From Lottia gigantea (taxonomy: Eukaryota; Mollusca; Gastropoda; Lottiidae), in contig NW_008710115.1 in assembly GCF_000327385.1 (NCBI RefSeq), forward strand, positions 847,236-911,235: a stretch of DNA of 64,000 nucleotides, given 5' to 3'. Below the pieces are notes generated by a model. The model saw nothing but the letters and a program-made list of their open reading frames with translations. It did no database searches and had not been told where the DNA came from. This document shows, piece after piece, positions 30,550-62,800 of this stretch. Both the position numbers and the translations under genes were made by a program. Within the stretch, counting starts at the first letter, position 1. Each line of letters begins with the position of its first letter.

Positions 30550-31365
30550 GACAAGGAAACAGTATAGATTTATGAAGAATATACAAGGGAAACAGTAGAG
30601 ATTCTTAAGGAAGATACAAGGGGAGAAGAAACAGTAGAGATTCATGAAGAATATACAAGGGAAGTAGAAACAGTAGAGATTTATGAAGAAGATACAAGGG
30701 AAGAAGAAACAGTAGAGATTTGGGAAGAAGATACAAGGGAAGTAGAAACAGTAGAGATTCATGAAGAATATACAAGGGAAGTAGAAACAGTAGAGATTCT
30801 TAAGGAAGATACAAGGGAAGTAGAAACGGTAGAGATTCATGAAGAATATACAAGGGAAGTAGAAACAGTAGAGATTTATGAAGAAGATACAAAGGAAGAA
30901 GAAACAGTAGAGATTCATGAAGAATATACAAGGGAAGTAGAAACAGTAGAGATTTATGAAGAAGATACAAGGAAGGACGAAACAGTAGAGATTCTTAAGG
31001 AAGATACACGGGGAGAAGAAACAGTAGAGATTCTTAAGGAAGATACAAGGGAAGAATAAACAGTAGAGATTCATGAAGAATATACAAGGGAAGTAGAAAC
31101 GGTAGAGATTCATGAAGAATATACAAGGGAAGTAGAAACAGTAGAGATTTGGGAAGAAGATACAAGGGAAGTAGAAACAGTAGAGATTCATGAAGAATAT
31201 ACAAGGGAAGTAGAAACAGTAGAGATTCATGAAGAATATACAAGGGAAGTAGAAATAGTAGAGATTCATGAAGAATATACAAGGGAAGTAGAAACAGTAG
31301 AGATTTGGGAAGAAGATAAAAGGGAAGTAGAAACAGTACAGACTCAGGAAGAAGATACAAAAGGT
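30550..31365 (+). repeat. 39-bp minisatellite, about 20 units, purine-rich plus strand
   Basis: The unit is gaaacagtagagattcatga followed by agaatatacaagggaagta, with recurring variants (cat/tat/ctt/ggg at one codon; aatat/agat). Since 39 is a multiple of three, both the plus frame (TREVETVEIHEEY) and a minus frame (FPCIFFMNLYCFY) stay open for long distances. The plus frame is broken by TAA at 31057. The minus frame runs 243 codons at 30538-31269. Neither has flanking exon structure or a recognisable start, so I call it noncoding DNA. The purine bias extends from about 30350 to 31440. Confidence 0.9.
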
Positions 31366-40844: not shown

Positions 40845-41275
40845 CATATATCTTATGAAAATCTAGCTAGTTCAGCATAAAACGTGTATTTCATGAGAAT
40901 TTGGCTTGTCAAGATTCAGGGTGAAACATGCATATGTATCTTATGAGAATCTGACAAGTTGAGAGCATGATACATATATCTTATGAGTCTGGTGGAAACA
41001 TGTCTTGTGAGAATCTGGCTAGTTGAGAACATGATACATATATCTTATGAGTCTGGTGGAAACATGTCTTGTGAGAATCTGGCTAGTTCAGCATGAAAAA
41101 TGTTTATCTTAATATGAGAATCTGGCTAGTTCAACATGTATCGTATGAGAATTTGGTTATTGCAGCTTGAAACATGTATTTTTACAGAATCTGGCTAGAT
41201 CAACTTGAAATACATACTCATTAAAAATCTTGATACAGTTTTTATGAGAATTTGGCTATTGCATCTTGAACTAGC
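40845..41275 (+). repeat. Degenerate tandem array
   Basis: Diverged units built on tcttatgagaatctggctag followed by ttcagcatgaaacatg, about 35-65 bases each. One block, gagtctggtggaaacatgtc followed by ttgtgagaatctggctag, is duplicated exactly near 40984 and 41048. Confidence 0.8.
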
Positions 41276-45539: not shown

Positions 45540-46675
45540 AATTTTATTAGATATGAATGTATTCCAATATGATGGTAAGTTATTAGTAATGTCAAGTCAA
45601 ATTCTATAAAATATGTATTCAATTATGATTCAAGAAATTCTATAAAATATGAATGTATTCTAGTGTTAGGGTGTATTGAGAGGAGTCTCAATGAAAGCAC
45701 TGGCCTAGGTCACAGAGCAATAGATAAGTCTATTAATTATGTGAAAATTAGTTAGTCTTTAGTATGATTTTGGTTGAAAAGACACACATACACTGCATGT
45801 TATATAATATACTGTATATAGCTATGGCATGATGGTGAGTTGTAAGTATTATCAGGAAGTTCTATAAAGTATGAATGTTTCTAGTATGATGGTAAGTTGT
45901 AAGTATTGTCAGGAAGTTCTATAAAGTATGAATGTATTTTAGTATGATGGTGAGTTGTAAGTAATGTCAGTAAGTCCTATAAAGTATGAATGTATTCTAG
46001 TATGATAGTGAGTTGTAAGTATTGTCAGGAAGTTCTATAAAGTATGAATGTATTCTAGTATGATAGTGAGTTGTAAGTAATGTCAGTAAGTCCTATAAAG
46101 TATGAATGTATTCTAGTATGATGGTGAGTTGTAAGTATTATCAGGAAGTCCTATAAAGTATGAATGTATTCTAGTATGATAGTGAGTTGTAAGTATTGTC
46201 AGGAAGTCCTATAAAATATGAATGTATTCTAGTATGATGGTGAGTTGTAAGTAATGTCAGGAAGTCCTATAAAGTATGAATGTATTCTAGTATGATGATG
46301 AGTTGTAAGTAATGTCAGGAAGTCCTATAAAGTATGAATGTATTCTAGTATGATAGTGAGTTGTAAGTATTGTCAGGAAGTCCTATAAAGTATGAATGTA
46401 TTCTAGTATGATGATGATTTGTAAGTATTGTCAGGAAGTTCTGTAAGATATGAATGTATTCTAGTATAATGGTAAGTTGTAAGTATTGTCAGGAAGCTCT
46501 GTAAGATATGAATGTATTCTAGTATGATAGTGATTTGTAAGTATTGTCAGGAAGTCCTATAAAATATGAATGTATTCTAATATGATGGTGAGTTGTAAGT
46601 ATTGTCAGGAAGCTCTGTAAGATATGTATGTATTCCAGTATAATGGTAAGTAATGTCAGGAAGTCCTATAAAATA
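45540..46675 (+). repeat. 58-bp minisatellite, about 14 good units
   Basis: The unit is agtatgatggtgagttgtaa, then gtattgtcaggaagtcctat, then aaagtatgaatgtattct. Units from 45820 to 46670 are close to each other; 45540-45690 is a diverged leading edge. Each unit has ggtgagt or ggtaagt followed directly by tgtaagt, i.e. two 5' splice-site consensus words. Confidence 0.92.
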
Positions 46676-47643: not shown

Positions 47644-47817
47644 ATGGCAGGATTTGTACGGAAATGTCCCTGTCTTAAACCACAGATAGAAGATGATGTA
47701 ACAGTATTAGATTATAGACATTGTAGTCTAGCTGATGTACCTGGTGAAGTTTTTAATTTTGAGAGAACTCTGGAAGAACTATTAACAGATTCTAATCAGA
47801 TTAGAGATTTACCAAGG
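47644..47817 (+). CDS. LAP gene coding exon 1, residues 1-58
   Basis: Start [13 protein letters not shown], then [20 protein letters not shown], then [20 protein letters not shown]. The family has LEELYLDANQ where this protein has [10 protein letters not shown]. The start was chosen by alignment with LRRC7/Erbin and by the acceptor at 47635. It ends phase 0 at gtaagt. Confidence 0.92.
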
Positions 47818-50800
47818 GTAAGTAGTATTTTTCATGTTTAAATGAGTTTATAAAATTGTTGCAATGGGAATGCCTTCCTGAGTATTTCTATTTTGTAGAG
47901 AATTAAAGCTGCATATTTGCATGTTCTGAAGTAAAATTACATCAGGCATCCCTTTACAGGAATTTATTGAGTCAAAGGTCGTCATAGAGAGAAGATTAGT
48001 AGACCAAGGGCAGAAGAAGAACATTATTGAGGACTTTTAAGACAAAGCATATCATTGAGGACTTATGACAAAGCACATCATTGGGGACTTAAAACAAAGC
48101 ACATCATTGGGGACTTAGGACAAAGCATATCATTGAGGACTCAAGACAGAACACATTATTGAGAACTTAAGACAGAACTCATCATTGAGAACTTAAGACA
48201 GAACACATCATTGAGGACTTAAGACAGAACTCATCATTGAGAACTTAAGACAGAACTCATCATTGAGAACTTAAGACAGAACACATCATTGAGGACTTAA
48301 GACAGAACTCATCATTGAGGACTTGAGACAAAGCTCATAATTGAGAACTTAAGACAGAACACATCATTGAGGACTTAAGACAGAACACATTATTGAGGAC
48401 TTGAGACAAAGCTCATAATTGAGAACTTAAGACAGAACACATTATTGAGGACTTAAGACAGAACACATTATTGAGGACTTTAAGACAGAAGACATTACTG
48501 AGAACATCTTTGACATCCTTAGGTCAAAAATTTTTTTTTACCAAAATCATTGATTCAGACATACAAGTTTTTTTGTAAGAACTTGAAATGATGACAAGTA
48601 GACATATTGGCGTACTCTTAAGCTAGAAAGATGAAAGTTTATTATTATTTTAAACATGTTAGTGTATACAAGTCATGTAGTTGATGTAAATTTAAAGAAT
48701 GTGTAGATGTTGTATTGATTTAATAGAATTTATAAACCAGATGTAGATAATGAGTTTGGCACATGCTGCTAATCAGACATCATAATTACATTATTTAAAA
48801 ATATTCTTTTAAATTTAACTGGATATTGTATTGGGTTGCTGAATATTCCATTCGTGTCTTCATAAACTTGAAAAAATATTTTATTTTAGTCAAAGAGACT
48901 TTTTTATGATTTTCCTTAACGAACATTGGTAAAATATCCAACTTCATTAAATTTTAAGGGTCGTGAGTCATTTTCATATTTTTGTGATGGCAGCTTCTTC
49001 GCCTAACTTTACTGGTCAAGGCAAAGATTTTGTGGTTGACCAATGCAACAAAAGATTCTGCAAAAGTGATCACTATTTTTGCGAGTTATCCTATTGTCTA
49101 ATTTGATAAAGGTAGCTGAAAGGATAGAGGATAACAGGTACTAGTGTAAAGTGACAGGGATATCTTCACTTAAGGGTTAGATGTCAAGATTGAATGCTAA
49201 ACTTAAGATCTTGAGTTTGTTCATTGTCAGATATTAAGCCCTAGGAAATAATACTAGACCTCATGTTGATCAGTAAGGTTTTTTCCTATTAAAATAGACA
49301 AATTGTACTGTATTTGTTTGAAAAATCTGTGCGAAAAGTTGTTAAACACACTACAATTTCCAGAGTTAAATCTGTGAAGGTTACATTTTGTTAATTAAAC
49401 ACACCAGACACGTTTCTAGTTAAAATCAACCTAAATAGTCTGTTTCAAAACATCTTTATTTTCTCTTTAAATATATTAAAAAAACAGTTGGCTAGATAAC
49501 TTTACAAACTTTGTCTGGTATTTCATTATAAATATTTTCTTTGTTTCATTGTTAGAACCCTTGATTATTTCTTAGAACTGCTGAATTTTCATGGTTCTTT
49601 TATAAACTTATACCTTTGTCCTACACATAATATAAATCTCTGAAAAACTGATAGATTATTATCTGTGAATGCCTTAAGTTGTCTTTACAATGATGTTTTT
49701 CTTTACCTTTCATAATTTTGTCAGGGACAGTTGATTTTGAGTTTTACATTTAACAAGACCATATCTTTCTTTATTCTGAAATATGCAATCAGCACTTATA
49801 AATAGATGTGAGTGAGAAGATAGTGCCATAATATATAAAAAAAATGTAAAAATCACAGTTTGTAGATAATTGTATTTATAAGAACTATTTTATTGTTATG
49901 ATATCAAGATATGAACTTACAGGAACTATTTAATTTTATTTACAGGAACTATTTAATTGTATTTACAGAAACTATTTTATTGTATTTACAGGAACTATTT
50001 CATTGTTATGGTATTGGAAAGTTAAGATGTTCATAGTCCCTGTTCATTTACTAAAGACTAAATAATTGTACTTACAGGAACTATTTTATTGTATTTACAG
50101 GAACTATTTTATTGTCATAGTATTAGAACGACAAGATGTTCATAGTCCCTGTGCATTTACTAAAGACAATAATTGTACTTACAGGAACTATTTTATTGTA
50201 TTTACAGGAACTATTGTATTGTTTTTACGGGAACTATTTTATTGTATTTACAGGAACTATTTTATTGTCATGGTATTAGAAAGTTAAGTATTAGTGACAA
50301 TGAGATTATAAATATACCACCAGCTATCTGCAGTCTCAATAACCTTGAAGAACTCAACTTCAGTAAAAATGGTAAGATTTGTCTTATTTTCAAATGTTAT
50401 TTACATAAATCTGAAGACATCTTGTGTCCAGAAACATTCCTTTGGTGTCAGTGGAAAGGTCATTCTCAGATACAATTCCTGCTAATTCATGGAACTCAGC
50501 ATACCAAGTATTTAAGTTTTAACCATGTCTTATTATCTTAGCCTTGTCTAGGTTGCAGGTCTCAGTCATTTAAGTAGGTTTTGTTAAGTATGACTAACAA
50601 ATGCAAGACAATTCCATTAATCAAAATCTTGTCCATAACATGGCAAAATCCAGAGTAAAATAAAATACCATCATGTGTTTCGAAAAGGCATGGTCTGCTT
50701 CGTGCGCAACACCCATCCTACTATAGGTCAACCAGATCAATTTATGTCCTACCAAACAAATTGGCCAATATGCAAGTTCCAGAAGTTGGCTTTATATACC

Positions 50801-53800
50801 ATACAATTACAATATTCCTATTCTTAAAAGACTTTAAATGAAGTCAGTTGTGTGAAGAATGAAATCAAAATTAAAATGAGGTTGTATATGTATATGAATT
50901 TGAATAATTATTGTGTACTTTGCAATATTATTTGCAACCATTTCAAAAAGAAGTGAACCTTGAAATTTGTTAAATTAACTATGAGATGAGAATACATCTA
51001 GTATAAGACGTAAATAAAATCTTAATAAGAATGATGGTATAATGTAAAATAATACTAGTTATATATATATATGATATGTAATATGGTGTATTTTAAAGGG
51101 TTTGTTAAAAGGTTTTCTAAATTTGTTATGTGTATCAGGGACATTGATAGCATCAATTTGCACCATTCCAATTTTCGATCAGACGTCTGTGGTTCCTGCA
51201 ATTCCACTAAAACTAAGTGTTTGATGACGTCACTTATCACGATGTGCCTTATGTGATATAGTGTAATTGTGGTATCATATACTTAGTTTAAGTGGAATTG
51301 CAGGAACCACAGACTTCTGATTGCAAATTGATGCTATCAGTGTCCCCATAAAAAAATTAAACCATATCTACAATGCCTTTAAGTCAGAAAGATGGTATAT
51401 GTAAAGTAATACTAGTTTTATAAATGATATATATGTAATATTCTGTATTTTAAGTTGTAATTCACTAGACTACATATTGTCTAATATTTTAATAGCTTAA
51501 TATTGAATTACAATTACACCTCTCAAATCATGTCAAAACACTCAAATATTTTCTATGCTCTAATAAAGAATTATTGTATTCCAATGTAGTTAAACCCGTA
51601 TTTTATAGTATTTATCATTATTCTCATGTTCATTATAAACTTTTAACTACTGACCTATCTTTCTTCTGATCTGAACTTAGTTACTCCCTTAAACTTAGCT
51701 TATTCTATTCTTACCTATATTATAATAGAATAGTTTTTTTCTTTAGGTTTGAATAGATTCTATTCATATATTTCATAATAATAATGTTTGATTTCAAAAC
51801 AGTGCATTCTAAAGTTCAATTGTAGTTTAAAAGCCTTATTATAACTAGAATTCTATTCACATTTTATGACAACATAAAAGAGATAGGGACTTAATAGCCT
51901 AGAAATTTTTGCAATATGTTAAGGAATTTGATTAAAATGTAGCCATGTTTCCCCAATTTTCTGCTTAATCTCTGATCTGACTTAGAAAGTGTCTACTATT
52001 AACCATTTGTTTTTGATTGATAAGTTCTACATTATGGTGTATTCTGGTTAATATTTGGCTGAACACAACTAAGAGAAGAATTTCTTCAGATCATGGATAA
52101 TGGTTGTAGTATACTGCAGATATAGCATGAAACTAAACATCTTTATTTCATCCAGATTTAAGAATTAAGATATGTAAAAAATCAGAAACTCATACCTATG
52201 ACCTATTTTAGAATAATTTTTGTCTAGTAAAGGTTTTCAATCTTGATTATAAATTTGCAAAACAGGCCAAGATTTATAGCTAATGTAAAATATATGCAAT
52301 ATATATTGTTTTGAAATGTAACATAATATAATAAAAGTTTTATGATAGATAATTAGAAAAATAAAATACATATATGCTAGTACACGTATTACTATATATC
52401 AAGATAACCAAATAGTTTGTACTTATTCGTAATAACTTCTAATACTTCTTTACATTACCATTTGACAATTTCTTTTATCTTTTTTGTAATGTTTTCTTTG
52501 ATGTTTAGAGTGAATAATATTGGTATAATTTGTATTTAATAATGTTCAATTTGTAAGATTACATGGGGATCAATCATATGTATGTAGTAAATAAAATAGA
52601 GACAAACTATAAGAATAGGCAAACAGACCATAATTTTCTTATCAATATAATCTGTGTAATATTGTTTGTCCTGTTTAAAAGGTTGTAATAATTGTATGTG
52701 ATAAATATCTTGAATAACTGTCAGTTTCTCTAGGCTAATTGTACGACAACAATCTTCCCCCCACTATATTTGATGGTAAAAACTGATTTGATTGAAAAGA
52801 CATAAAACATGAAAGGAAAGATTAAACATTTGACGAAGGATGTTGAAGTTATCGATGGTGAACGAGTAGACTGATTTTATAAGAGAGTGGTTGACAAGTT
52901 CATTCTATTTATCTATTTTTAAAAATTTGTTATTTTACTTTTATTTTTGTTTAATTTGCCAAAGAAATGCACTTGACTGCACCAAATTACACTTTCATTC
53001 TTTAAAGATATATTTTATCACTGATTTCCTTTGATACATGTCTGGGTGAGGTCTAGTCAAGCAGAAAAATTCAAATTGAGCTGTTTGGGTATGCTTGTTA
53101 AACATTAACACCTATTGACACAAACACCTTTTTTAATATGAGACAAATTATAATCAATGTCAATGTGTAGTATTATATAAATGCTTAGTGCCAGAAGTTT
53201 CTTTTCATAATCTTATATATTATAGAATATGATTATCTACTATTAGGTTATTTAAATTGTCTGACAGCAATAAGAGGGCAATTCTTCTGAGTATTTTAAA
53301 TCAATAATATTTTTGCTACATAAGACATCAACATTGATTAAAGGCCATATTGTGTCATTTTTGGGGGTTGATTTGGGTCTTGAATATATAAATAGTCTAA
53401 CTAGACCTGCAGGAAAATCGCATAATCCCTTCAAATATACTTCAAACTAGAAACTTCACTTTCTTTTTCTATGTGTGTCTTTTCTGTATGCAGGGATTTG
53501 AAGACTCAAATTTCAAACAGTGAGCTGTGAATACTAATAGTTATTAACTTAGATATTTCTTGTTTCTGAGACTAAAGTATGATTGTTCAAAAGGATGGCA
53601 AACCTGTCCTTTAAAATTAGTTTGAAAATAGATTGATGTGATTCCAAAGAAATATTTTACCCTTTTTATACGCCCACATCTCTCTTTGTGGACGTATATT
53701 GTCGGCACCCCTGTCCGTCTGACTCGAATTTGAGCTATTTTCGACCGTTAGAAGCAGAGTTATTGCTCTTGCCCCAAAATCTTGAATATTTACCATCCGC

Positions 53801-56800
53801 ATGCCGTGGTGGGCGTATATGGCTGTGGCCCACTATCTTTGTGGGTACTATTCTGATTTTTTGTCCTATATATCTGTGATTAACACAGATTACCTACAGA
53901 TTATAATATAAAAGACCAGTTAATGATATTATAATTCATTCAAGAGCTCTGTTGTTAACCATGACCTAATATATATTTTGTTGTAGGTGTAATAGATGTA
54001 CCTGAAACTATAAAACAATGTAAATTATTATCTGTGATAGATGCTAGTGTTAATCCACTTGGCAAGTAAGTCAACCTTTTTTTTAGTATACATTGTTTAT
54101 TTTTACAGTTTACATACACACCATTTTATATTACTCTGTATCACATTGGTGATGTTTCTAATAACTATATATACCGGTAAAATGTCAGATTCATCAAAAA
54201 TGTCACTTAATATTGAATTCATAAAGTTACTCATAAATGAAAAGATTCCTGAATGATATGCCGTTTAAGAATTCTAAAAACTAGAAAGAGTAGTGATCAT
54301 TTGTTGTACATTAGAATCTCTAAGAGATCTGAGAAATGAAACAAGTCTGCAACAATTGATAATGCTTGGGTTATACAGACAGTTTTTGTTCAGGATTTTT
54401 TGTTGCAGACAAGAGTTTCACTGAACACCTGTTGGCACACAAGCAAACAGAAAAACTCCAACCTGCAGTTTTCAGCTGTGTCGATAATCATGTGATTGAA
54501 GTGAGAAGGAATCTCATTCTGACGCTTTGTGAACAAATTTGGTAACAAATATCAAATTGGTTTAATGTCATAAATTCTGTTGGCAATGCGGTAATATTGT
54601 CATGGAAGTTCAGGCACACATGAAATTTAACTCAAGATTTCTGTGGGCAACAAAAATCGACAACAAAAATATTTTGTGTGTAGTCCCCAGTATTACACAT
54701 CATCCATACTTTTCTTAATTCATATTTTATGTGTGTTTAGATTTTCTTCATATTTTTGATATTTTGACTTAAGTCCATTGTCAAATAAACTTATCATATA
54801 CTACTAGATTTGATAAATTTTATAAATTTGATAGTCGTGTAAACTGTCTTATTAAATAAACACAAAGATTAATTCAATGGAGATAAGGTTGTGTTTTAAG
54901 GTTTATAAATTCCAATGAGAGGGTGGGTTTGTATTATTGTACTCTATCATTGTCCAGTTTGTCAACTATTGTTACTTTCACTGTAATTATCATTATATAA
55001 AATACCAGCTATTCACTCTGACAACTAGCCATACTTTACTAACAAGAAATCTGTCTCCTTTTAATTTATTTCAAAATTTAATTTACAATGTTTGTTCTTT
55101 GCCAAGAATGAAGGCTTAAGAACCTAAGGTTGAAAAAAAGTTATTTGGATGAGCTATAAACTTTGATACATGTATTCCTTAAAAAAATGTATATATTGTT
55201 CTGACACAGTTTTGCTCTTTGCCAACTTCATGTAATTTCCATTCTTCAGTATCGTATAAGCTATCGAAATTTATAATGTAAAATTCCACTAAATTTGTTT
55301 AAATTTTACTTTCAGACTTCCTGATGGTTTTACTCAGTTACAGAATTTAACCCAACTATATTTAAATGATACCTTCTTAGATTATCTACCTGGTAGTTTT
55401 GGCAGGTAAGTTATGAGATAACTTTTTATAGGTTGAAAATTTAGAATCATTATCTTTACAAATTTATAGTAGCTGGATTTGCTAAGATTTTTTATACATA
55501 TTTACAACTTTTCACCAATGATTTTCATAGTCTTATCCTTACCACTGATTCTTATGTTTAAATCCTTACCACTGATTCTCGTGTTTAAATCCTTACCACT
55601 GATTCTGATGTTTAAATCCTTACCACATATTCTCATAATCAAATCCTTACCACATATTCTCATGGTCAAATCCTAAACACAGATTCTCATAATCAAATCC
55701 TTACCACAGATTCTCGTGTTTAAATCCCTACCACATATTCTCATAATCAAATCCTTACCACATATTCTCATAATCAAATCCTTACCACAGATTCTCATAA
55801 TCAAATCCTTACCACAGATTCCCATGTTTAAATCCCTACCACATATTCTCATAATCAAATCCTTACCACAGATTCTCATAATCAAATTCTAAACACAGAT
55901 TTTCATAATCAAATCCTTACCACAGGTGCTCATTATCAAATCCTAAACACAGATTCTCATAATCAATCTTTACTACAGGTTCTCATAATCCAATTTCAGA
56001 CTGACCAAATTAAAAATTTTTGAAATAAGAGAAAATCATTTGAAGACTCTACCTCAGTCATTTAGTAGATTGATAGAAATAGAGAGATTAGATATTGGTA
56101 ATAATGAATTTACAGAGTTGGTAAGTTGTCAATAGATTATGTAGATTACTTAATCATCTGATAATACAGGGTTCTTATTATGTGGTAATGCTGAACTGGA
56201 AATTAATAGCTGAGCATACTGCAATAGCCACCTTTCTTGTATCACAGAAGTTTGTAAATGCAACAAATTGGTAAGAATAAAGCAAATTAGAGTCCTCGAG
56301 AGAAAGTTTGTGCACAAAAAGCCATAATTTTTTACGGTCTGTCTGAGGGCTATGTTTAGTTGTATTCACTGGCATATATTCCAATTTATTCGCTGCATTC
56401 CATGATATAAGAAAGGTAACTATTACAGTCAAGGTATAAGACAAGGTTCTAATAGCTTGGCATTGTGAAGATGAAGCTGAGCTGAATTTCATTAGCTGCT
56501 ATGTATTGCCCAAATGTTATTTTGTGTTTTGCTTTGCTGTTCAGATTATTGTACCAGGGTTTTTTATTATTATTTGTAATATTCATAACTTTATTTTTCA
56601 GCCAAAATGTATAGGAAGTTTAGTGAAATTATCTGAGTTATGGTGTGATAGTAATCAGATTAAAGATATACCACAGGTTAGTTTCATTTACTTCAACAAG
56701 ATATCTTTTGTCCTGTATTGGACATCTTTGAGGTAGCATATGAATCCTGATTCCCGATTTAAGGAACATGTGTGTCCAAAATAATCAGTGTTTGAATGTT

Positions 56801-59800
56801 AAATAGATGACTCATCTTTTCTTGAAACTCTGTCATAAATATAAAAGACATATATGATAGAAATAGTATTTCTAGTTTGAGGTATATTTGAAGGAATGAT
56901 GCGTTTTTCGTACATTTCTAGTACTCCTGAAGACTATTTACATATATTCAAGACCCAAAAAACACCTGTGAACCATATTGTTTAAGATAATTGGTGTCAT
57001 ATATATAGCTTTAATTGATTTGAATTCTCCAAAAAAAGAAATAAGTACTACATCTTTTGAATATCATATGTTATGAATGTTCTACTTTCAGTCCATTGGG
57101 AATTTGAAGGAATTGATGTTCTTAGATGCATCTAAAAATAGAATAAAGACCATTCCAGATGAAATTGAAGGATGTAGTTCATTAGCTGATTTACATTTAA
57201 CATGTAATAGATTAGAGGAATTACCAGAAACATTAGGTATGGTTTTTATTTCTGGCCTTCTGAGATGAAGCTCCTGCAAATGACCATTTATGGCGCTATT
57301 TTGGAGGTTCAACAGCTTGACAACAATGATAAAATTAGCTAAATTGAAAGTGTTGTACGAAAAATAAGGCATGATGATTGAATTGAATCTTTTTCTTATT
57401 TGAGAGATAATTGCACACTGTACAATGTTGCTCGTCTTCAATTGCTCAATTTGGTGCAGAAAATTAAAAACTCCATTCATTTCATTTCATTTATATGATT
57501 TTCACCAAACATGTATTGTTTAAAAGTTAACAGCGTCAGCAAGTGTCAAAATTTCACTTAAAACCTAAACTTTCTCAGGTTTTGACGCCTGGCTCCCTTG
57601 TGTCTACGTTAAAATCTTGAAGTTGATTTCTTACTTTCTTTTGCAGGCAATTTAAGTAATTTAACAACATTTAAAATTGATGACAACCATTTAACAAGTC
57701 TACCTAAATCTCTAGGAGGGTAAGTTATTCTGTCTAGGGAATACATGTTGTTGTGTCAAGCTTTAATTTGAGAAAATATGTCAAGAAGTTTTGCATCAGA
57801 AAAAGACAGAGATTAATTATATACAATATAGAAAATCTTTAAAAAAAATGGGAAAAGTTTGATAATTTACATTTTAAAAGTTAGACTTGTTGGATTTTAA
57901 ATATTTTTGTGAAATGGGACCTTGTTTGAAGTAAAATTACAAAATGTACAACTACTGCCCTGTATAACTGTTGTCTAGTAACAATACTGATTATTTTCAG
58001 GTTAACATCACTATCAGAACTCAATGTTAGTACTAATGATTTAGAAGCATTACCACCTACTATTGGTTTTCTTAGAAATCTTAGAACATTTTATGCTGAT
58101 GAGAATCTTTTAGAAATTCTGCCATCTGAGGTTAGTATATTATATACACATATATATCTACATTAAAGGGGAAAAATGGTTGTAGATTTTTAATGACATG
58201 GCAAGATATCCATGACACACAACTATATCTTCACAGTGCCAGTATTGTATGTTCAGTAAATGACATTTATAGATAGAATATTAAATAAAAAAGAACACTA
58301 TTATTGATATACTACTCCTTCCTTTAATTTTTTCAATGTATTTTTTCCTGTATGTGAATTGAAATGTTGCAAAAACTAAAGGAAGGAGTAGTATAATATC
58401 CATAAATTATGACAATATCAAATTTTTTTTGGGCCCCTAAATTTGAAAAATCATTCACTATTTCTAGAATTATCCCTCATTATAGATTATTAATTTTAAC
58501 TGTGTCATGTAGGCCTATGATCAATTTAATTAATTTACAAGGCTTAAAGCTTATTTTAAGTAAAAAAGAATCAATTTGGAGTTTCAAATCATGAATTTAC
58601 GCGCTTTGGAAAAATCTCCCGACTTTTCACCCAATCTCCAGATTTTTCAAGGCAAATCTCAAGATTTTTTTTCCTGACCTGTACACATGTATGACCTCAT
58701 TATGCTTTAAAACAGACATTAATAGGCAGACACTAAACAGCATGAATATCAAGTGACTGGATTGTGCTTTCTATTAGCATTGTTCCAGTCTAAGAAAACT
58801 GTTGATTTCATTTAATGAAAATTGAATCGTTTCACATCTTGTGTATATATTTGATAATGTATGAACAATATTATAATTTTAGCTTGGTAGTTGTAATGGA
58901 TTAACAGTTTTATCACTACGTAGTAACAAGTTGACCTATATACCAGATGAATTGGGTCGAATACCAAAATTACGAGTCTTGAATCTGAGTGATAACTTTC
59001 TCAAATATTTACCATTTTCTGTGGTGAAATTAAAAAATCTTCAAGCATTATGGTTGACAGAAAATCAGGTAATAGTAATCATATTGATATATAGTGATAT
59101 TAGTTTGTTATCACCTTACTTAGTGGTGCAGATTTTGTACTTACTTTGAAAAATTGAGGTTTTGAATGTTACAGACTGTAAAAAAACAGTTGAAAAAAAG
59201 GAGACTGTCCTCTGCCAGGCAAGAGTCTGAGATGTTCAACCTCATAAATCAGTTATTAGTCTTTCAGTGTCAGAAAATTGTTACATAATTCTCATTCATC
59301 ACAAGAGTTACCAGTAATGTTGAGATATCTAATAAATTTTTTCTCCAATTACAAAAAAGGAAAAAAAAAGAAAAAGGGTGAAAACAATACAGCTTCGAGC
59401 TCGCACAGATCTGTCAGCTTCCGAGCTATCTTATGCCCTCTATAATTTCAGACAAAACCGTTAATAAGTTTACAGTCAGAATATGATGAAGAAAGTGAAC
59501 GTAAAATATTAACATGTTATTTATTACCTCAGCAACCATCAAACTATACAGGTTGGTTCTTTTTATTATAATTTATCTCCACATTCTTACATTTTCTCTT
59601 GTGTTTGTTGGTTCATAATTCATTTTGGCCTGTAAGAAGGCTTTAATTTTGATCAGATTCTTTAAAATTTGGTATGTGTGTTGGTGAAAATTGTTTCTAA
59701 TGTTAATTTAGCTTAAAATTTGCTTAGTTTTGTTATTTATTGGGTAAAAAAGGCTTTTTTGAAGAGAGGAGCTAAGGGCAAATTCGATAATTGGGCAATG

Positions 59801-62800
59801 CATTTTTAGCAACTGTATTAGTTTTGCAAAAGATTTTACCTACCCAGAGAAAAATATTTGAGTAAACAGTCAAATTTTTCTCAATTTTTCAAAAACCAAG
59901 AAAAATTAACATAGGTGTTATTTTTTAGCTGATGAAAAAGATGGTGACACAGATAGTTTTCATCCTTCTATATGGGAGGAAGAGAGGGGACGTAGACAGA
60001 AAATACAGTTTGAATTTGGTGAAGATATCAATGATAATGTAAGTTGTGTTTGTATTATTGGTTGCACCAAGTTCAATATCACCAAGTTATTGTTCTAAGC
60101 ATTGTTCTTATGTTGTATTAACACTAAAAACTGTTATAGTTCTTTGTTTATAAATTTGATACAGTTATAGATACCCGGTATTTAATTTCTCCTAATACGA
60201 TCTAAAGACATTTTTAAGGCAGGGGAATATTTTATAAGTTCGACCAAATTCTTCATTCTTGAGGAATATGGGTAATCAATTCATTTGGACCAACTGTAGG
60301 TCAACTTCTAGCATTGGTTTTGTTCCTATTTTTTCATCAGATTGATTTCATTGCATGTAAGATGAGAGTTGATTTTTAAACAGAATTTTAGGAAATATTA
60401 CTAATGTCACGAGAAGCTATCTAAGATACTATTTAGATTGAAATCAAATTGATTTTAATTCCAATTAAACAGGAACATTTAGTAAGACGACCAACTCCTT
60501 ATCCAAAAGATTTACGAGAGAAGGCTAGACATGCTAGAAATCTGGCGTTACGTCAAACACTAGGAGATAGAGATTATGAAGAAGGACAAGAGAATTATGG
60601 ATTTGAACATGAGGTAATTCTATGTGGCCTTGATATAAACTGGCTTGGCTTTGGAACATAGCTAAATAAAAAGATGATCTCACAGTGTGCTTTGCTAAAA
60701 TATATTCTAATGATAAAATTCTAAAAAATCTAATTTTCATTTGTTTGTGATATAATTAAAGACATTATTAAAACATAACTTGTTGTTAATCTGTGTTTAA
60801 CGCTAGGCGTTCTTCAGACAACTCAGATGATCGCATAGTGTGAAACTCTGAGTTACAACATGATTCAACTTCTGTTTTGATATTTCTAAAGCACTCTACA
60901 ATTGATGTAATGAACACTATATTAACAGTGAAAATATTGTATTATTGTAAAGACTAAAGACTGTTATTTCTACTATTGCATGTTAAAATAGTTGCATTTT
61001 GTTTACTTATACTTTCGTGTGGAAATGTTGTCACTAAGAACATTTATAGACTAAAATTGGTCTATGAGAAAGTTGTTATTTTTACTCCATATCAAATGTG
61101 ATTTTAACACCATTGATTATTTGCTATTATAAACATATTTTAATATATTAACATTTAAATTGACCTGTCATCTATTATTTTTGGATTTTTGTTTTTGTCT
61201 GTGGCTTCATTTTTTCAATATTGTGTGAAGTGAGAAATTTAACTGTTTTATTAATCAGAAAATTATAAAATGGAAAAACAGAAATGAAAACATTTTTCAA
61301 AATTTATAAAGAAAATTTATTACAAATGAATCAATTGATATTTTGAACTATACAAAAATTTTAACTTCAATTTTCACAACAAAAAAAAACCCCAAAAATT
61401 CTTATCTTCTTTGATTTACACTTTGCATTCATATGAAACATTATGAAGTCATCAAATCAAATGATTAGAAATTTGTAAATATTTATAAAGTTGACAGGTC
61501 AAATTGTTTGTGATGTTATATCTAACATTATTAATTTGTTGGCAGGGTGGTTTAAAAACACGAGATATATCACCTCACCGTGGTCATAGGGACATTAAAC
61601 CCTCATCACCATCCTCCTCCTTACAGGAAACACATAGATTATATAGATATGATAAGGTAAGAACACAAAAACACATAGATTGTATAGAAACACATAGATT
61701 ATATAGAAAAACATAGATTATATAGAAGCACATAGATTTTATAGATATGATAAGGGAAGAACACATAAACACATAGATTATATAGATATAATAAGTAAGA
61801 ACACAAAAACACATAGATTTTATACAAACACAGAGATTATATAGAAACACGTAGATTATAGAGAAATACATAGATTTTATAGATATGATAAAGTAAGAAC
61901 AAGGAAACACATAGATTTTATAGGAACACATAGGTTATAAAGATATGATAAGGTAAGAACAAGGAAACACATAGATTATAAGGAAACACATAGATTATAT
62001 GAAAACACATAGATTACATGGAAACACATAGATTATATGGAAACACGTAGGCTATATACGTATGATAAAGTATAATTATATTAGAATTGGAAGAGTATTG
62101 ACTTTACTTGTTAATTCTATTTCCAGGAGAAGTTGATAAAAGATAAAGCTAGAATTCAACAACGTCATTCTGCTGAACATGATGATATGGTTTTAAGATC
62201 TCCAAAACCTAAACGCCATTTACTAGAAGGAAGAAGCCATAAAAAAGGTTAGAACACCTGATGATTTAAGTTATTTGGCCATGTTTCTTAGGATTTATGT
62301 TTCTGAACCAATTAATAGTCCCAAAAGTCATTTCATAATATTTTATATGCACTGAACTATCAGTGAAAATATGATTTTATACCTGGATTATTTTGTTGTA
62401 TTTCCAGGTTTAGGTGATCAACCATCAACTAGAGCCAGACGTCCTGGTTCAAACCCTGAAATACCTCAATCTATAATAGATTCTAATAGTGCTAAAACAG
62501 GACATAATTCTGCTGAATGGCAATTTGATGCGTTAAATTATAAACAATTGCGTTATCATCATAAAGGACATAAGAAACGTATGCGAGACTATGATTCCGA
62601 TACAGGTTACCGTAGTGATCAGGATATAGTTCGATTCCATAATCAGTATTTACATCATGGTAATAATAACAATAATAATCATAATCCACAACCTTTACCT
62701 CAATCTTCTAGCAGACGACGTTCTCGAGATACAGCAGGTTATGGAAGTGATCTTGAATCATACGTCAGTCAAACTCGTAATGCTGCTTACAAACACATTC

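Follow-up and report, generated by a model that had tools for sequence, protein, structure and literature searches.

A minisatellite built on the exon 2 splice acceptor of a LAP-type gene in Lottia gigantea

The LAP-type gene and neighbouring repeats

The DNA analysed, a stretch of 64,000 nucleotides with low G+C content (the window), carries on its plus strand an LRR gene of the LAP type. Its exons were placed by hand, and joining the first seven of them results in one open LRR protein. Judged by the phases, at least one exon is missing from the model between 57236 and 58001 and one more is probably missing between 59068 and 59929. The model leaves out 5′ untranslated exons, and no exon numbers are used beyond the seventh. 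The NCBIfam comparison of the protein returned bacterial LRR families only, all under the cut-offs, and a scan with the protein of exons 1 and 2 found no relative.

47644–47817, plus strand: first coding exon, ending in phase 0 (AGG, followed by GTAAGT)
50254–50371, plus strand: exon 2, LRR
53987–54065, 55316–55405, 56000–56120, 56602–56676, 57092–57236, then others, plus strand: further hand-placed exons

Several repeats lie in and around the gene. Array E (45829–46651; 58 bp, 14 copies) is located upstream of the first coding exon and its unit contains strong donor-like words (ATGGTGAGTTGTAAGT); this array might sit at a 5′ untranslated exon. An array of 21 units of 39 bp, a period divisible by three, occupies 30556–31360; it has long open frames on both strands and a strong G and A strand bias. 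Between 51140 and 51350 an imperfect inverted repeat was detected, with arms of approximately GGGACATTGATAGCATCAATTTG and AAATTGATGCTATCAGTGTCCCC, which looks like a small non-autonomous mobile element. The repeat at about 53665–53820 is presumably one known from bivalve genomes, which, like the low G+C content, would fit a mollusc.

Array B at the exon 2 acceptor

Exon 2 begins at 50254 with GAACTATTTTATTGT, encoding ELFYC. The intron in front of it ends in a tandem array that is composed of the intron tail and the start of this exon.

49883–50253, plus strand: array B, ten tandem copies of the intron tail and exon 2 start, in 23-bp and longer composite units
49992–50026, plus strand: long copy of the exon start (identity to exon 2: 32/36)
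50101–50135, plus strand: long copy of the exon start (identity to exon 2: 31/36)
50225–50230, plus strand: TTACGG, unit near the real acceptor in which the AG is lost
50248–50253, plus strand: TTACAG, the real exon 2 splice acceptor

The earlier note had described about eleven tandem 23-bp units of acceptor and exon start, and ten copies plus the real exon were indeed recovered, exon 2 proper being the eleventh copy of the series. With TTACAGGAACTATTTTATTGT and up to three mismatches, 11 matches were obtained in the window, all of them within 49876–50268, while 100 shuffles gave none. The junctions end at 49882, 49922, 49945, 49968, 49991, 50077, 50100, 50184, 50207, 50230 and, for the real exon, 50253. 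Each 23-bp unit consists of eight intron bases (A[CT]TTACAG) and 15 exon bases, the latter identical to the start of exon 2. TTACAG is intact in eight of the ten upstream copies, the exceptions being TTATAAG (49882) and TTACGG (50230). Two of the units exceed this length, at 86 and 84 bp, which leads to a higher-order period of 107–109 bp. The longer, decayed copies of the exon start that the note had seen in two earlier units are those listed above, and the identity of both to exon 2 is far above chance. A third long copy, more decayed than the others, seems to lie at 49883. The array B unit had no exact match in viral contigs.

The note's proposal that the splice acceptor and exon start gave rise to the array is supported by local alignment: array B and exon 2 scored 55, compared to a shuffle maximum of 30, and the match covers exon bases 1–35, starting exactly at base 1. 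The 15-base identity of unit and exon does not by itself give a direction, and an intronic minisatellite that predates the exon edge might have had one of its units recruited as the start of exon 2. However, the exon 2 start aligns without gaps, through the exon junction, with solved LRR proteins, and Pfam LRR_8 runs over the junction of exons 1 and 2 as a single stretch (residues 41–97). Moreover, the long copies contain exon bases lying outside the 23-bp unit. Since exon 2 encodes a normal, gapless LRR, the exon has, by sequence comparison, seeded array B and is older than the array. An origin of exon 2 from an older repeat, which the note had named as one finding that would overturn its proposal, was thus not borne out, and we give it only a very slight chance.

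Tandem arrays are easily misassembled, and this has happened to one boundary-spanning minisatellite of amphioxus in a draft genome (PMC3087553), so that copy number or order might be wrong here as well. Against this, the differences among the copies of array B follow an order: there are long units, decayed units and one distinct copy at the edge. The exons on either side also give one open protein when joined. An assembly artefact is very unlikely.

Decoy acceptors and the choice of the splice site

To judge the acceptors, a weight matrix was used that had been built from 13 other acceptors of the same gene and thus reflects one gene only. The real exon 2 acceptor scored 14.1 and the intact TTACAG copies 9.2–14.4. 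None of 520 other intronic AGs reached the score of the real acceptor with this matrix, the maximum being 13.2. Because their scores match that of the real site and other intronic AGs score lower, the copies are genuine acceptor look-alikes, to a simple matrix as good as the real site. The ladder of decoy 3′ splice sites upstream of the real one, which the earlier note had pointed out, is accordingly present.

50185–50253, plus strand: 69-base stretch added if the decoy acceptor 50184 is used; open, not LRR-like

As the note had claimed, use of the AG at 50184 would add exactly 69 bases and no stop to the reading frame. It is the sole stop-free decoy among the eight intact ones: those at 49968 and 50100 are in frame, yet run into stops, and the remaining five cause a frameshift, so that seven of the eight lead to stops or a truncated protein. 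By contrast, the suggestion that the 23 additional residues correspond to one LRR did not hold. Their number follows from 3 × 23 bp = 69 bases, which is true for any 23-bp repeat. The insert gave no match to an LRR in a best-stretch comparison, and with it the Pfam LRR_8 match across the junction is lost.

The 46 bases preceding the real exon 2 AG contain no other AG, because the copy at 50230 has lost it. A yUnAy-like TTTAC, 26 bases upstream of the real AG, is a branch-point candidate by motif guess only. Together, the AG-free stretch and TTTAC could favour the real acceptor.

The quality of the decoys, which lie far above other intronic AGs and equal the real site by matrix, and the open frame obtained from 50184 might be taken as signs of a functional splicing device, in which decoy use, above all of 50184, is regulated, or in which the decoys retain parts of the spliceosome and modulate gene output. 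A precedent would be human IFI6, in which, according to PMC4526556, repeat units further downstream serve as alternative donors. On the other hand, the only open insert lacks LRR character and disrupts the LRR_8 match over the junction, the other seven intact decoys result in truncation, and in amphioxus comparable arrays have been reported to leave splicing undisturbed and apparently normal (PMC3087553, PMC3902484). Furthermore, nine of the ten copies keep the AG, which does not set these positions apart from neighbouring columns; thus, there is no sign of selection on the decoy AGs, either way. Functional use of the ladder, while conceivable, lacks support and is in our view improbable.

Relation to known minisatellites and probable origin

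The earlier note knew of no described class of minisatellites seeded on a splice site. Such a class has, however, been described: in amphioxus, minisatellites spanning intron-exon boundaries were named mirages, with Adh3 and the globins BflGb6 and BflGb9 among the cases (PMC3087553), to which troponin C and the similar case of PGBD5 were added (PMC3902484). They occur at 5′ and 3′ boundaries, have units of 10–160 bp and are unstable in length, and the mechanism behind them was called unclear (PMC3087553, PMC3902484). In human IFI6 (6-16), a minisatellite supplies multiple splice donors (Turri et al. 1995, in the form cited in PMC4526556). A literature search combining mirage, minisatellite, splice and exon returned the amphioxus work only (PMC3087553, PMC3902484), and no paper linking mussels, minisatellites, introns and splice sites was found by the search.

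What array B and the amphioxus mirages have in common are tandem repeats that span a boundary, splice signals in the copies and an array bordered by the real exon. The unit of array B holds the intron end and the exon start, and many of its copies keep the AG signal. It differs from the amphioxus cases in residing in a LAP-type gene and in combining a 23-bp unit with longer composite ones. Array B is thus real and was correctly described, is mostly explained by known processes, and belongs to the mirage class.

Two further arrays in the gene touch splice sites.

55521–55999, plus strand: array C, about 18 units of 27 bp, running up exactly to the acceptor of the exon starting at 56000
61628–61656, plus strand: source of array D, the amplified exon end, followed by the donor GTAAGA
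61657–62070, plus strand: array D, copies of the exon end and splice donor on the intron side

In array D, the last 29 bases of the exon 61546–61656 recur together with the donor GTAAGA (score 53, null maximum 31). Its copies include a perfect decoy donor (61953), two weaker ones (61795, 61893) and one that is dead, GGAAGA (61755); reading through from the exon into the array leads to a stop after 19 codons. With the exon end and intron start in its unit and the GT signal kept at 61953, array D is a mirage too and the mirror image of array B, at a donor instead of an acceptor of the same gene. It resembles the IFI6 minisatellite, whose units also carry splice sites; the IFI6 repeats are donors while array B provides acceptors, and alternative use of downstream units is reported for IFI6. 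The units of array C end in CACAG, CACAT or CACTG, and its last decoy, 21 bases upstream of the acceptor, would bring in a stop. Its best exon match lay within the shuffle range; array C therefore abuts an acceptor only and has no exon-derived unit.

An exon-derived origin was also considered for arrays A (48021–48502), E and F (40939–41088) and was rejected for these as well as for array C, their best matches being at or near shuffle level. The exon alignment of array E (29, null maximum 28) is long, gapped and off-centre from any exon edge.

Of the four long arrays in the gene, three touch a splice site. The probability of this arrangement is about 1e-5 if arrays are barred from exons and 7e-3 if an exon overlap of up to 45 bases is allowed, both values coming from a post hoc test on a single gene. 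Many tandem arrays are present in the window, and several have no placed exon next to them; together with the larger value of the post hoc test this is what might be expected if an ordinary intronic minisatellite merely happened to end at an exon and the contact with the splice site were meaningless. Mere adjacency, however, would not give the exon-derived bases inside the units of arrays B and D. Chance placement is therefore disfavoured for these two and possible for array C; as an account of array B it is highly improbable.

For array B we consider it quite probable that a boundary-spanning minisatellite arose on the 3′ splice site of exon 2 by duplication and slippage and that its last acceptor is mainly used; its mode of birth, the choice of the splice site and its neutrality are what we infer here, while its anatomy, its seeding on the exon, the quality of the decoys by matrix and the outcomes for the reading frame follow from the analyses above. 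The word ATTGT occurs on both sides of the exon 2 splice site at an offset of 23 bp, the period of the array, and is the longest direct repeat bracketing the junction among the offsets of 15–59 that were tested. For this test, a single-copy junction was reconstructed by joining the real exon to the intron tail found in a long unit. Since it was taken from inside the array and is not independent of it, the ATTGT argument is suggestive and no proof. Short direct repeats and slippage are an established start for minisatellites. The agreement of the 23-bp period with the spacing of ATTGT suggests ordinary slippage. The intron tail and about 36 exon bases may first have been tandemly duplicated as a block, and slippage between the two ATTGT words would then have generated the 23-bp units. 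Within the intron, copies would pile up, as an intact exon is still obtained when splicing uses the last AG; any copies within the exon would cause a frameshift and be purged by selection. The last acceptor would mainly be used, perhaps aided by the loss of the AG at 50230, and use of a decoy, presumably at a low level, would mostly give truncated messages. Duplication of splice-competent sequence inside a gene is likewise the basis of the Rogers model of intron gain (in the outline cited in PMC3087553). Unlike in that model, the repeats here are in an existing intron and no new intron was seen.

What is new is that boundary-spanning minisatellites are now seen in a LAP-type gene, which has one at an acceptor and another at a donor. 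A plausible route of birth is offered by the short direct repeat on either side of the junction, whose spacing equals the unit length exactly. Eight near-identical acceptors upstream of a single real one constitute a natural experiment on the choice of splice sites. It may even be that splice junctions nucleate minisatellites in this lineage, outside the cephalochordates, repeatedly and at acceptors as well as donors, and that the spliceosome chooses among near-identical sites largely by position, although we consider this broader proposal rather doubtful. If such nucleation were true, the LAP-type gene would serve as a natural test case for how splicing finds the correct copy.
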